34,517 nt of DNA, taken from positions 1 to 34,517 of the forward strand of contig WLMU01000012.1 of assembly GCA_009700115.1 (NCBI GenBank). The letters are read 5' to 3'. Below are positions 1 to 4,815 of this stretch, piece after piece. The stretch is from Actinomycetota bacterium. GTDB taxonomy: Bacteria; Actinomycetota; Acidimicrobiia; Acidimicrobiales; Acidimicrobilacustridaceae. Within the stretch, counting starts at the first letter, position 1; every line of letters starts with the position of its first letter. The position numbers and the translations under genes were made by a program. Below the pieces are notes generated by a model. That model saw only the letters and a program-made list of their open reading frames with translations, made no database searches and was not told the DNA's origin.

Positions 1-324
1 GACGACGGCCTTCTTCACCGGAGCCACCTTCGCTACGACCTTCTTGGCCGGGGCTTTCTTGGCCGGAGCCGCCTTCTTCACGACCTTCTTCGCTGGGGCC
101 TTCTTGGCCGGAGCCGCCTTCTTCACGACCTTCTTCGCTGGGGCCTTCTTGGCCGGAGCCGCCTTCTTCACGACCTTCTTCGCTGGGGCCGCCTTCTTCG
201 CTGGGGCCTTCTTGGCCGGAGCCGCCTTCTTCACGACCTTCTTGGCCGGAGCCGCCTTCGCCGTCTTCTTGGCCGGAGCTTTCTTCGCTGCGGACTTCTT
301 CGCCGTTACTTTTTTGACTGCCAC
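1..324 (-). CDS. Histone H1-like Lys/Ala/Pro-rich DNA-binding protein, 3' end outside window
   Basis: The minus strand reads an unbroken frame from GTG at 324 to the window edge (108 codons, no stop). The product is almost entirely Lys, Ala, Pro and Val, built from modules such as AAPAKK, APAKK and VVKK. It resembles eukaryotic histone H1 tails, bacterial H1-like proteins (Hc1 type) and the C-terminal tail of mycobacterial HupB. Such proteins bind DNA through charge and help compact the nucleoid. The N-terminus starts directly in repeat sequence, so no folded HU domain precedes the tail; whether a globular domain follows cannot be seen. A GGGAGA ribosome-binding sequence lies about 6 bases upstream of GTG. 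The phenylalanine-rich frame on the opposite strand is a shadow of this gene. The class is clear; the exact family is not. Confidence 0.8.
   Translation of the reverse strand, partial: MAVKKVTAKKSAAKKAPAKKTAKAAPAKKVVKKAAPAKKAPAKKAAPAKKVVKKAAPAKKAPAKKVVKKAAPAKKAPAKKVVKKAAPAKKAPAKKVVAKVAPVKKAVV
56..190. repeat. Three perfect 45-bp tandem repeats inside the H1-like gene
   Basis: Positions 56-100, 101-145 and 146-190 are identical 45-bp units, each starting ttcttggccggagccgcc on the plus strand and coding for 15 residues on the minus strand. An 18-bp partial unit (191-208) and a degenerate copy (209-238) follow. Perfect identity at synonymous positions points to recent slippage or unequal crossover, so copy number may differ between strains. 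Confidence 0.95.
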
Positions 325-358
325 GGATGATCTCCCTTGAGTGGCGGTGGATCGGCGG

Positions 359-387
359 AGGGTAAGGGCGCCACCCTCCCACGTCAA
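359..387 (-). promoter_or_regulatory. Probable promoter of the H1-like gene
   Basis: On the minus strand TTGACG (382-387) and TACCCT (359-364) are separated by exactly 17 bases, matching a housekeeping sigma factor promoter. It lies 35 bases upstream of the GTG start. It shares the 109-bp divergent gap with ileS. Confidence 0.55.
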
Positions 388-402
388 CCCACACGCACGG
401 AA

Positions 403-418
403 GCCGTTCAGCAACGGC
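403..418 (+). other. Short perfect stem-loop in the ileS leader
   Basis: GCCGTT (403-408) and AACGGC (413-418) form a perfect 6-bp stem with loop CAGC, 15 bases before the ileS ATG. It is too small to be a T-box. A role in ileS translation is possible but untested. Confidence 0.35.
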
Positions 419-433
419 GTACGCTTGGCCCTC

Positions 434-3400
434 ATGCCATTCGGTCCCGTCGACCCAGATCTCAACCTCCCCTCCCTCGAACAGCGTCGTCTGGACCAGT
501 GGAAGGCCGATGACACCATCGCTGCGACCCGCCGTTTGCGGGCCGGTGGCGAGCCCTGGATCTTCTATGAGGGCCCGCCGACTGCCAACGGCCGGCCCGG
601 CCTTCACCATGTGTGGGCGAGAGTCTTCAAAGACATCTATCCACGCTTTCAGACCATGCGGGGCCGAGATGTTCCTCGCAAGGGTGGCTGGGATTGCCAC
701 GGCCTACCCGTCGAACTCGAGGTCGAAAAAGAACTCGGACTCTCGACCAAACAAGAAATCGAAGAATTCGGTATCGCCGAGTTCAACCAACGATGTCGCG
801 AATCAGTTCAGCGCTACGTCACCGATTGGACCGCACTCACCGAGCGTTCCGGCGTATGGATCGACACCGCCGATGCGTATTGGACCCTCGACAACTCCTA
901 TGTCGAATCGGTGTGGTGGCTCATTCGACAGCTTTGGGACAAAGAACTTCTCTATGAAGGCCACAAAGTCTCGCCCTACTGCGGTCGCTGTGGCACCGCA
1001 TTATCGAGTCATGAACTCGGCCAGCCCGACGTGTACCGCGACATCGTTGATCCGTCGGTCTATGTGCGATTCCCCATCGTCGATCGTGATGTCGACCTCA
1101 TGGTGTGGACCACAACCCCCTGGACACTCATCTCCAATGTTGCCGCCGCCGTCGGCCCCGACATTGACTATGTAAGAACGGCGTCTACCGATGGAAGTCG
1201 CGACCTAATCATGGCCGCAGCGCTTGCACCCGAAGACGCAATCATCGTTGAGCAGTTCAAAGGCGCCGATCTAGTTGGATGGCGTTATGAACGACCGTTT
1301 GACACCCTCGCTGCACCTGCCGGCGCAGACGGTTGGCGTGTCGTTGCCGCCGACTTTGTTACGACCGACGATGGTTCCGGCATCGTTCATCTCGCTCCCG
1401 CATTCGGCGAGGACGACGCTGTCGTTGGTCGAGCGGAGAAGCTTCCTGTTTTGAATCCGGTTAACGCCGACGCTGCTTTCGATGACTCCGTTCCGTTCTT
1501 GACAGGAACCTTCGTAAAAGATGCCGACCGCGACATCATCGATGATCTCGATGCCCGCGGACTACTCGTTCGCGAACAGGCCTACGAGCACAGCTACCCG
1601 CATTGCTGGCGATGCAGCACTCCGCTCATCTACTGGGCGAAAACGTCTTGGTTCGTGCGTACATCGGAACATCGTGATCTGCTCATGTCTGAAAACGAGC
1701 AGATTTCCTGGCATCCCGAATTCATCAAACACGGACGATTTGGCAAGTGGCTCGAAGGAAACATCGATTGGGCACTTTCACGCGATCGCTATTGGGGAAC
1801 TCCGCTTCCAATCTGGCGTTGCGATGCCAACGGCCATGAACACTGCATCGGCTCTGTCGCCGAACTCAGCGAACTCACCGCACGAGATCTCACTGAACTC
1901 GATCTTCATCGCCCGCACGTCGACAACATCACCTTCGATTGCAACGCAGATGGCTGCTCGGGAACGATGCGCCGCGTCGCTCCTGTCCTCGACGCGTGGT
2001 TCGACTCCGGATCAATGCCTTCGGCTCAGCGTCATCACCCATTCGAAAATGCCGATTCTTTCAATGGTGCATTCCCAGCCGACTTCATCTGTGAAGCCAT
2101 CGACCAAACCCGTGGCTGGTTTTATTCGCTCCTCGCGGTGAACTCTCTGGTCTTCGGTTCAACGCCTTACAAGAACGTTGTCTGTCTCGCACTCATCGTC
2201 GATGAGAACGGGCAGAAGATGTCGAAGTCGCGTGGCAACGTCATCGCACCATTCGATATTTTTGACACTCTCGGTGCCGACGCTCTTCGTTGGTATTTCT
2301 TTTCATCGGGACAGCCATGGACACCACGGCGCGTTTTCCCTGACGGCATCCGCGAAGCCACACGCCAAACGTTGCTCACACTCTGGAATGTGTTTTCGTT
2401 CTTTGCCACCTATGCCGACCTCGACGGATGGCAGCCCGACCCGCAAGCAGCTCCGCCCACGCATGTCCTTGATCGCTGGATCCTCTCTGAACTCGACGAC
2501 ACCGTGGCCACCGTCACCGCGTCCCTTGAGGGTTTTGATGCCCTCAGCGGTTCCGGTCGAATCGCGAAATTCATCGACGATTTGTCGAACTGGTACGTGC
2601 GTCGCAGTCGGCCCCGCTTCTGGAAGTCCAGTGATGCTGCCGCTCACGCCACGCTCTACGAGTGCCTCACCACCATTTCTCAGGTGCTTGCACCCTTCTG
2701 CCCATTCCTGTCCGACGAGATCTACACAACGCTCACAGGGGGCCAATCCGTCCACCTCACGGACTGGCCGGCAGCCAGTGGCCGTCACGAGCCTCTTTTG
2801 GCCGAGCAGATGGACGCGGCCCGACGACTTGTAAGCCTTGGCCGCTCAGCCCGCACCGACGCCAAGATGAAAGTGCGCCAGCCCTTGGCTCGAGCCCTCC
2901 TTCTTCATGGCGGAACCAACCTCAGCCCCGAAATCGAAGCCGAAATCAAAGTCGAACTCAATGTGAAGACACTTGAACGACTCGATTCGCTTTCTGGCCT
3001 CATGGGCTGGAGCGTCATCCCAAACTTCCGACTCCTCGGACCTCGACTTGGCCAGCGCGTCAACGAGATCAAAGCCGCCCTTGCTGATGCCGATGGTTCG
3101 GCACTTCACGCGCAACTCGCAGAGCAGGGTTGGATCGAGATCGCTGGCGAGCGACTCAGTTCCGAAGAGGTCGAGGTCCGCGCCGAAAAACACGCCGATC
3201 TTGCGCTCGTCGAAGACGACGGTTGGGCAGTTGCTCTTGACCTCGAACTCGATGACGAACTTCGTGCCGAAGGAACGTCCCGAGAACTCGTGCGCTCGCT
3301 GAACGATGCCCGAAAGACCGCCGGTTTGGAAATTGCCGATCGAATCGCAGTCACGATCGATGCCGATGACGGCCTCCGTGCCGTCATCGAAACTCACCGC

Positions 3401-3511
3401 GAAACGATCATGGCCGAAGTTCTCGCTCGATCACTCGAGTTCGGTGAAGGCGATCGTGCGATTGAGATCGATGGAACCAGCATTCCGATCTCGATCATTC
3501 GTGTCGACTGA
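434..3511 (+). CDS. ileS: Isoleucyl-tRNA synthetase, IleS2 type with GLHH signature
   Basis: This enzyme charges tRNA-Ile with isoleucine in the cytoplasm. From ATG 434 it is 1025 residues, the length of the large, eukaryote-like IleS2 class; a GTG at 341 is in frame but the extra 31 residues look non-coding. The class I signature at residues 56-59 reads G-L-H-H (599-610) instead of HxGH. KMSKS is intact at residues 595-599 (GQKMSKSRGN). The CP1 editing domain carries WTTTPWT near residues 225-231. Paired Cys motifs (CGRCG, CWRC) and the motif WDCHGLPVE fit the IleS2 class. The C-terminal half is the anticodon-binding region. The gene stands alone, divergent from the H1-like gene and convergent with divIVA, whereas many actinobacteria have it co-oriented downstream of divIVA. 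No strong ribosome-binding site precedes the ATG. Confidence 0.97.
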   Translation: MPFGPVDPDLNLPSLEQRRLDQWKADDTIAATRRLRAGGEPWIFYEGPPTANGRPGLHHVWARVFKDIYPRFQTMRGRDVPRKGGWDCHGLPVELEVEKELGLSTKQEIEEFGIAEFNQRCRESVQRYVTDWTALTERSGVWIDTADAYWTLDNSYVESVWWLIRQLWDKELLYEGHKVSPYCGRCGTALSSHELGQPDVYRDIVDPSVYVRFPIVDRDVDLMVWTTTPWTLISNVAAAVGPDIDYVRTASTDGSRDLIMAAALAPEDAIIVEQFKGADLVGWRYERPFDTLAAPAGADGWRVVAADFVTTDDGSGIVHLAPAFGEDDAVVGRAEKLPVLNPVNADAAFDDSVPFLTGTFVKDADRDIIDDLDARGLLVREQAYEHSYPHCWRCSTPLIYWAKTSWFVRTSEHRDLLMSENEQISWHPEFIKHGRFGKWLEGNIDWALSRDRYWGTPLPIWRCDANGHEHCIGSVAELSELTARDLTELDLHRPHVDNITFDCNADGCSGTMRRVAPVLDAWFDSGSMPSAQRHHPFENADSFNGAFPADFICEAIDQTRGWFYSLLAVNSLVFGSTPYKNVVCLALIVDENGQKMSKSRGNVIAPFDIFDTLGADALRWYFFSSGQPWTPRRVFPDGIREATRQTLLTLWNVFSFFATYADLDGWQPDPQAAPPTHVLDRWILSELDDTVATVTASLEGFDALSGSGRIAKFIDDLSNWYVRRSRPRFWKSSDAAAHATLYECLTTISQVLAPFCPFLSDEIYTTLTGGQSVHLTDWPAASGRHEPLLAEQMDAARRLVSLGRSARTDAKMKVRQPLARALLLHGGTNLSPEIEAEIKVELNVKTLERLDSLSGLMGWSVIPNFRLLGPRLGQRVNEIKAALADADGSALHAQLAEQGWIEIAGERLSSEEVEVRAEKHADLALVEDDGWAVALDLELDDELRAEGTSRELVRSLNDARKTAGLEIADRIAVTIDADDGLRAVIETHRETIMAEVLARSLEFGEGDRAIEIDGTSIPISIIRVD

Positions 3512-3596: not shown

Positions 3597-4502
<906 letters not shown>

Positions 4503-4557
4503 GGCGGCGATGGTATCGGCCGAACGCGGCTCGGGTGTCAACGCCCTCAGATTGGGC

Positions 4558-4815
4558 TCAGCCCGGCAGCCACGCCAAAAGGATTTCCAGTCCGATAAAC
4601 ACAATCATCGGGGAAAGGTCGAGCCCCATCCCGCCCACACGAACGGGAGGAAGTAAGGCTCGGATCGGTCCAAGAACTGGCTCAGTGACGCGGTAGAGGA
4701 CCTGTCGAAGCGTCTCTATTGGTCCGGAGCCAGATGGCGGAAACCAGCTCAGAACGATTCGTCCAAGCAGACACAGCAAAAACAATTGAGCGACGTAATG
4801 AATCAGTACCCACAC
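4558..4815 (-). CDS. yggT: YggT family small integral membrane protein
   Basis: The 85-residue product has two hydrophobic segments (residues about 5-24 and 66-84) joined by a loop with the family pattern LSWFPPSGSGPI and RVTEPVLGPIRALLPP. YggT proteins sit between sepF and divIVA in many Gram-positive genomes; their role is unclear, with links to osmotic stress and division. The start is GTG at 4815, nine bases after the sepF stop, so it is probably cotranscribed with and translated after sepF. Length and motifs fit the family well. Confidence 0.88.
   Translation of the reverse strand: MWVLIHYVAQLFLLCLLGRIVLSWFPPSGSGPIETLRQVLYRVTEPVLGPIRALLPPVRVGGMGLDLSPMIVFIGLEILLAWLPG

Follow-up and report, generated by a model that had tools for sequence, protein, structure and literature searches.

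The forward strand of the window, the 34,517-nucleotide stretch of contig WLMU01000012.1 analysed here, carries an isoleucyl-tRNA synthetase gene (ileS) whose product carries GLHH in place of the canonical class I signature HXGH. Is this exchange genuine, does the enzyme stand alone in its genome, and is it a peculiarity of this organism or a property of the lineage? The features on which the answers rest are collected in Table 1.

Table 1. Features of the ileS region, in window coordinates
Feature	Position	Strand	Basis
ileS, IleRS2-type isoleucyl-tRNA synthetase, 1025 aa	434..3511	+	TIGR00392 score; best PDB matches are IleRS2 structures
GLHH, non-canonical G/AXHH class I signature, residues 56–59	599..610	+	Translation; aligned on HXGH position
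Editing (CP1) domain, approximately residues 201–390	1034..1603	+	phmmer match to isolated IleRS domain 1wk8
KMSKS, intact, residues 595–599	2216..2230	+	Motif scan of the window IleS
Anticodon-binding domain PF08264, residues 680–818	2471..2887	+	Pfam match
DivIVA gene, convergent with ileS	3597..4604	-	Pfam match

The signature and the enzyme that carries it

The DNA of the motif, GGCCTTCACCAT, is read as the codons GGC CTT CAC CAT, and the translation of positions 587–619 is NGRPGLHHVWA, which bears out the swapped signature proposed in the initial annotation. In a phmmer alignment that is gap-free over the motif, GLHH lies opposite PHVGH of 8c8u and 8c8v and PGVHH of 8c8w, three Priestia megaterium IleRS2 structures (HVGH in the first two and GVHH in the third), and thus falls on the HXGH column. 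A motif scan of all 1025 residues finds one G/A-x-H-H (residue 56), one KMSKS (residue 595) and no H-x-G-H, ruling out a canonical signature at another site of the window IleS. The KMSKS and editing domain that the initial annotation had reported as intact are both present, the latter matching 1wk8, which we take to be an IleRS editing domain, and the translation also contains WTTTPW and HLAPAFGEDD. Pfam matches cover catalytic, anticodon-binding and DUF5915 domains.

GLHH exceeds what chance would give, because all 30 best-match loci, own genome included, of an order-wide search (191 of 198 genomes matched) read GLHH (28 loci) or GVHH (2 loci); chance or a frame artefact is ruled out by the gap-free alignment together with the same residues in the relatives' loci. 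An error of sequencing or assembly has a negligible probability and is refuted by the recurrence of the motif in other assemblies, such as those of L071–L084 at 80–100% identity, and by a frame (341–3511, from a GTG at 341) that stays open across 1056 codons. Within this frame, translation more likely begins at the ATG at 434, whose residue 1 is where the alignments with close homologues start.

The window IleS scores 873.5 bits against the TIGR00392 ileS profile (cut-off 621.4). Among structures, it reaches 898.5 bits with 8c8w and 842.7 bits with 1ile (T. thermophilus IleRS), versus 333.3 bits with 1ffy and 320.8 bits with 8c9f; we take 1ffy to be S. aureus IleRS1 and 8c9f P. megaterium IleRS1 (the IleRS1/IleRS2 labels following in part PMC10485003). 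Judged by its sequence, then, the enzyme is an IleRS2 and not an IleRS1. The distinction matters because the swap is reported to abolish the activity of IleRS1 and to be tolerated in IleRS2 (PMC10485003). Among Gram-positive bacteria, bIleRS2 is described predominantly from firmicutes and actinobacteria (PMC4861432).

G/AXHH IleRS2 are already described as a kind, with Streptomyces griseus and Deinococcus radiodurans (ALHH) as examples (Brkic et al. 2023, PMC10485003), and the window enzyme is an expected member. It shares with them, as that source presents them, the IleRS2 type, Gly or Ala at the first position, His at the third, a KMSKS-type loop and the housekeeping role; Gly first, His third and fourth, the KMSKS and editing domain, and its place in the tree (below) all agree with this assignment. 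The five Streptomyces enzymes with GAHH that were compared (L101–L103, L105 and L116) are 47–49% identical to it. The canonical IleRS2 of P. megaterium and T. thermophilus, which provide the best PDB matches, have the same family and domain order; unlike the window enzyme, they carry HVGH, with mupirocin Ki values of 1.08 and 0.20 µM, respectively (PMC10485003, Table 1). The published census counts 158 HXGH IleRS1, 77 HXGH IleRS2 and 86 G/AXHH IleRS2, lists S. griseus among the last, and allows that an IleRS2 may be the sole ileS gene (PMC10485003). With 86 of 163 IleRS2 in the G/AXHH state, the rarity that the initial annotation implied does not hold up against this source.

Gene setting and copy number

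Past divIVA, and like it on the minus strand, follow sepF, an Ala_racemase_N-domain gene, a Cu-oxidase_4 gene and ftsZ (Pfam); this setting of ileS is core chromosomal. The mupirocin-resistant IleRS MupA and MupB (NCBIfam NF000257 and NF000258) are related to the window IleS, which scores 787.4 and 794.1 bits against them. However, these scores are far under the curated cut-off of 1900 bits and, unlike MupA/MupB, the window ileS is a chromosomal housekeeping gene; the scores and the place beside divIVA, sepF and ftsZ rule out a gene of the MupA/MupB type. A search of window positions 1–1000 for a T-box ileS leader RNA returned, up to E = 1, a sole match to a snoRNA family at 13.4 bits (gathering score 40). 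We note that a lysine/alanine-rich repeat protein, cut by the window edge, is encoded divergently from ileS at 1–318 on the minus strand, and gives a weak match to the histone H1-like HC2 family (25.4 bits against a curated cut-off of 40).

The own assembly (2,233,191 bases in 183 contigs, 85.4% complete) contains one locus over the TIGR00392 cut-off, and its next match, at 216.4 bits, fits other class Ia synthetases, as these would score. The gene was initially annotated as chromosomal and apparently the sole ileS, and this reading holds. Given the fragmentation and incompleteness of the assembly, and the published coexistence of IleRS1 and IleRS2 in some bacteria (PMC10485003), one might suppose that the window copy is a resistant spare, a canonical ileS being encoded in the portion that the assembly lacks. 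We consider this highly improbable: of 61 relatives, a number that counts the own genome, 55 have exactly one ileS match over the cut-off and none has two, and 42 of the 61 reach a completeness of 90% or more with contamination of no more than 5%. In addition, 191 of 198 genomes in the order sample match the window IleS at E ≤ 1e-100, with at most four candidates scored per genome, and 187 of these have a single match; four have two (G002, G041, G083 and G759), and in G002 and G041 the pair looks like one gene split over contigs.

Inheritance of the swap and its predicted effect

Motifs read from the fetched loci of the 61 relatives comprise 36 GXHH, 17 HXGH and 2 XVHT, with 6 not readable. 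Within the window's own family (37 genomes, own included), 31 of the 32 readable genomes are GXHH (GLHH or GIHH) and one (G032) has HYGH; the others, G001, G013, G021, G025 and G035, yield fragments or no ileS match. The 24 genomes from other families of the order divide into 5 with GLHH, 16 with HYGH or HHGH, 2 with XVHT and 1 not readable (G046). GXHH is thus not universal among the relatives, since G032 and 16 of the 24 other-family genomes have HXGH. The nearest named records are lake and other environmental metagenome assemblies, with the titles Actinobacteria bacterium, Candidatus Microthrix, Microthrixaceae or Acidimicrobiia; they overlap with the examined genomes and so do not provide an independent count. 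Four loci titled Bifidobacterium breve (L073, L081, L095 and L096) encode IleS 83–97% identical to that of the window, and these assemblies look mislabelled. The HYGH enzyme of G032 (L054) is an IleRS2 of a different clade, which suggests that ileS was replaced or that a contig was misbinned.

A tree was built by a quick method from 172 IleS frames (several genomes repeated), reduced to 89 that are less than 78% identical and, after 26 were dropped by hand, to 63 rows of 975 columns; it is unrooted and retains the motif columns, with 15 of 60 inner branches drawn open and an unusual letter make-up in 20 rows. The window row falls within three GXHH-only sets, which comprise 5, 13 and 17 rows (branch values 97, 100 and 99), and the HYGH/HHGH enzymes of the order form a separate set of 11 rows (branch value 100). 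This arrangement indicates that the swap is inherited with the gene and that the order holds IleRS2 of at least three clades. On the evidence of this tree, GLHH is an inherited clade trait that is common to the relatives and no local oddity, the window result showing inheritance of the swap across the clade.

Inheritance alone explains the presence of the motif in these organisms. The motif may be selectively neutral, with resistance a by-product and mupirocin-like inhibitors of no consequence, a reading compatible with the preferred one and to which we give slightly less than an even chance. It accords with the near uniformity of GLHH/GIHH in the family, with the 16 other-family genomes that manage with HYGH or HHGH, and with a tree that needs only 4 state changes among HXGH, GXHH and XXHT over its 63 rows. 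Against it, L189 (G292, same phylum) is an IleRS2 with canonical HIGH inside a GXHH set, so that return to HXGH seems possible, and the fact that it occurs a single time gives a weak indication that the GXHH state is being maintained. The HIGH of L189 is likely a reversion, like the one described for Deinococcus-Thermus (PMC10485003).

Published enzymology connects the swap with millimolar Ki values for mupirocin (PMC10485003). In the D. radiodurans IleRS2, exchange of the natural ALHH for HVGH lowers the Ki from 6600 µM (6.6 mM) to 8.1 µM, and introduction of GVHH raises it from 0.20 to 35 µM in T. thermophilus and from 1.08 to 460 µM in P. megaterium (PMC10485003); computed from Table 1 of that source, exchange in either direction shifts the Ki approximately 175- to 820-fold. 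The natural ALHH enzyme is reported to show no catalytic trade-off, and GVHH put into HVGH enzymes costs up to about 10-fold in kcat or KM (PMC10485003). These data agree with the initial annotation, which had associated GxHH in IleS2 with very high mupirocin resistance at little loss of activity.

The window IleS is very probably the housekeeping IleRS2 of a clade with an inherited G/AXHH signature, predicted by analogy to aminoacylate normally and to have a millimolar mupirocin Ki. We infer its activity, geometry and resistance from the published enzymes, the kinetics behind the analogy coming from Deinococcus, Thermus, Priestia and Streptomyces. During activation of the amino acid, the third-position His would do the work that falls to the first His in HXGH enzymes, and the shifted signature helix of IleRS2 would leave space for it beside the adenine. 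Mupirocin has been proposed to clash with the third His (PMC10485003), and the same clash would exclude the inhibitor here. The window adds an environmental Actinomycetota family to the bacteria whose only detected IleRS has this mupirocin-resistance-linked swap.

A related lineage with XVHT and EMHGS

Two members of the order, G037 and G039, have IleRS that read LGVHTAWGR and LAVHTAWGR at the signature, with EMHGS at the KMSKS site. A scan of the whole G037 IleRS finds no HXGH, no G/AXHH and no KMSK. Searched with this protein, 12 of 59 genomes match at E ≤ 1e-150, adding G073; 166 of 296 phylum genomes match, and the best 30 loci, those in which the motif was read, add G202, G264, G266 and G354; and 8 of 395 class genomes match at E ≤ 1e-200, all eight being XVHT (G266 again and seven new). 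XVHT (X being G, A or P) thereby stands at the HXGH site in 14 genomes (L064, L065, L152, L162–L165 and L200–L206), of which 3 belong to the order of the window genome, 8 to its class and 3 to its phylum; EMHGS replaces KMSKS in 13 of the 14, L152 ending before the motif. The XVHT/EMHGS IleRS lacks the first and the fourth His of the signature as well as both lysines of KMSKS, and keeps the swapped-in third His.

The TIGR00392 profile detects one IleS in each of the seven XVHT genomes checked (G037, G039, G073, G202, G264, G266 and G354; 84, 97, 63, 97, 97, 98 and 89% complete). Five of these score over the cut-off, G202 is just under it (620.0 versus 621.4) and that of G073, a fragment, is also under it. 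A second IleS was detected in none of the seven, which include the single-contig assembly G264; the next best match, at 211.5 bits in G202 (L199), looks like ValS. The titles and abstract openings searched, in a collection with few subscription papers, contain no description of the XVHT form.

In the tree, the five XVHT rows form one set (branch value 100) nested in a minor GVHH clade. The first KMSKS lysine is already gone from all 20 GVHH rows read from this clade, and the second is kept in 15 (as MHKS or FSKS) and replaced by Tyr in 5, so that loss of the second lysine is not unique to XVHT; loss of the fourth His is unique to it in these data. Between 6 XVHT and 13 minor-clade rows there are 15 fixed differences, including fourth His to Thr and second lysine to Gly. 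Erosion of the class I signatures looks stepwise, the first KMSKS lysine being lost already in all of these minor-clade rows and the second in 5 of the 20, and the proposal that the G/AXHH state is a stepping stone to further erosion, as in the XVHT/EMHGS IleRS, stands at even odds in our judgement.

If active, the XVHT/EMHGS IleRS would be a class I synthetase without most of the textbook catalytic residues, and the lineage would directly test to what extent such an enzyme, given the third His, can do without HIGH and KMSKS, a question that matters more than the window itself. The lineage is found beyond the window and leaves the standing of the window feature unchanged. We note that L169–L172 and L174, minor-clade GVHH IleRS of the phylum, have MHYS, with Tyr for the second lysine.
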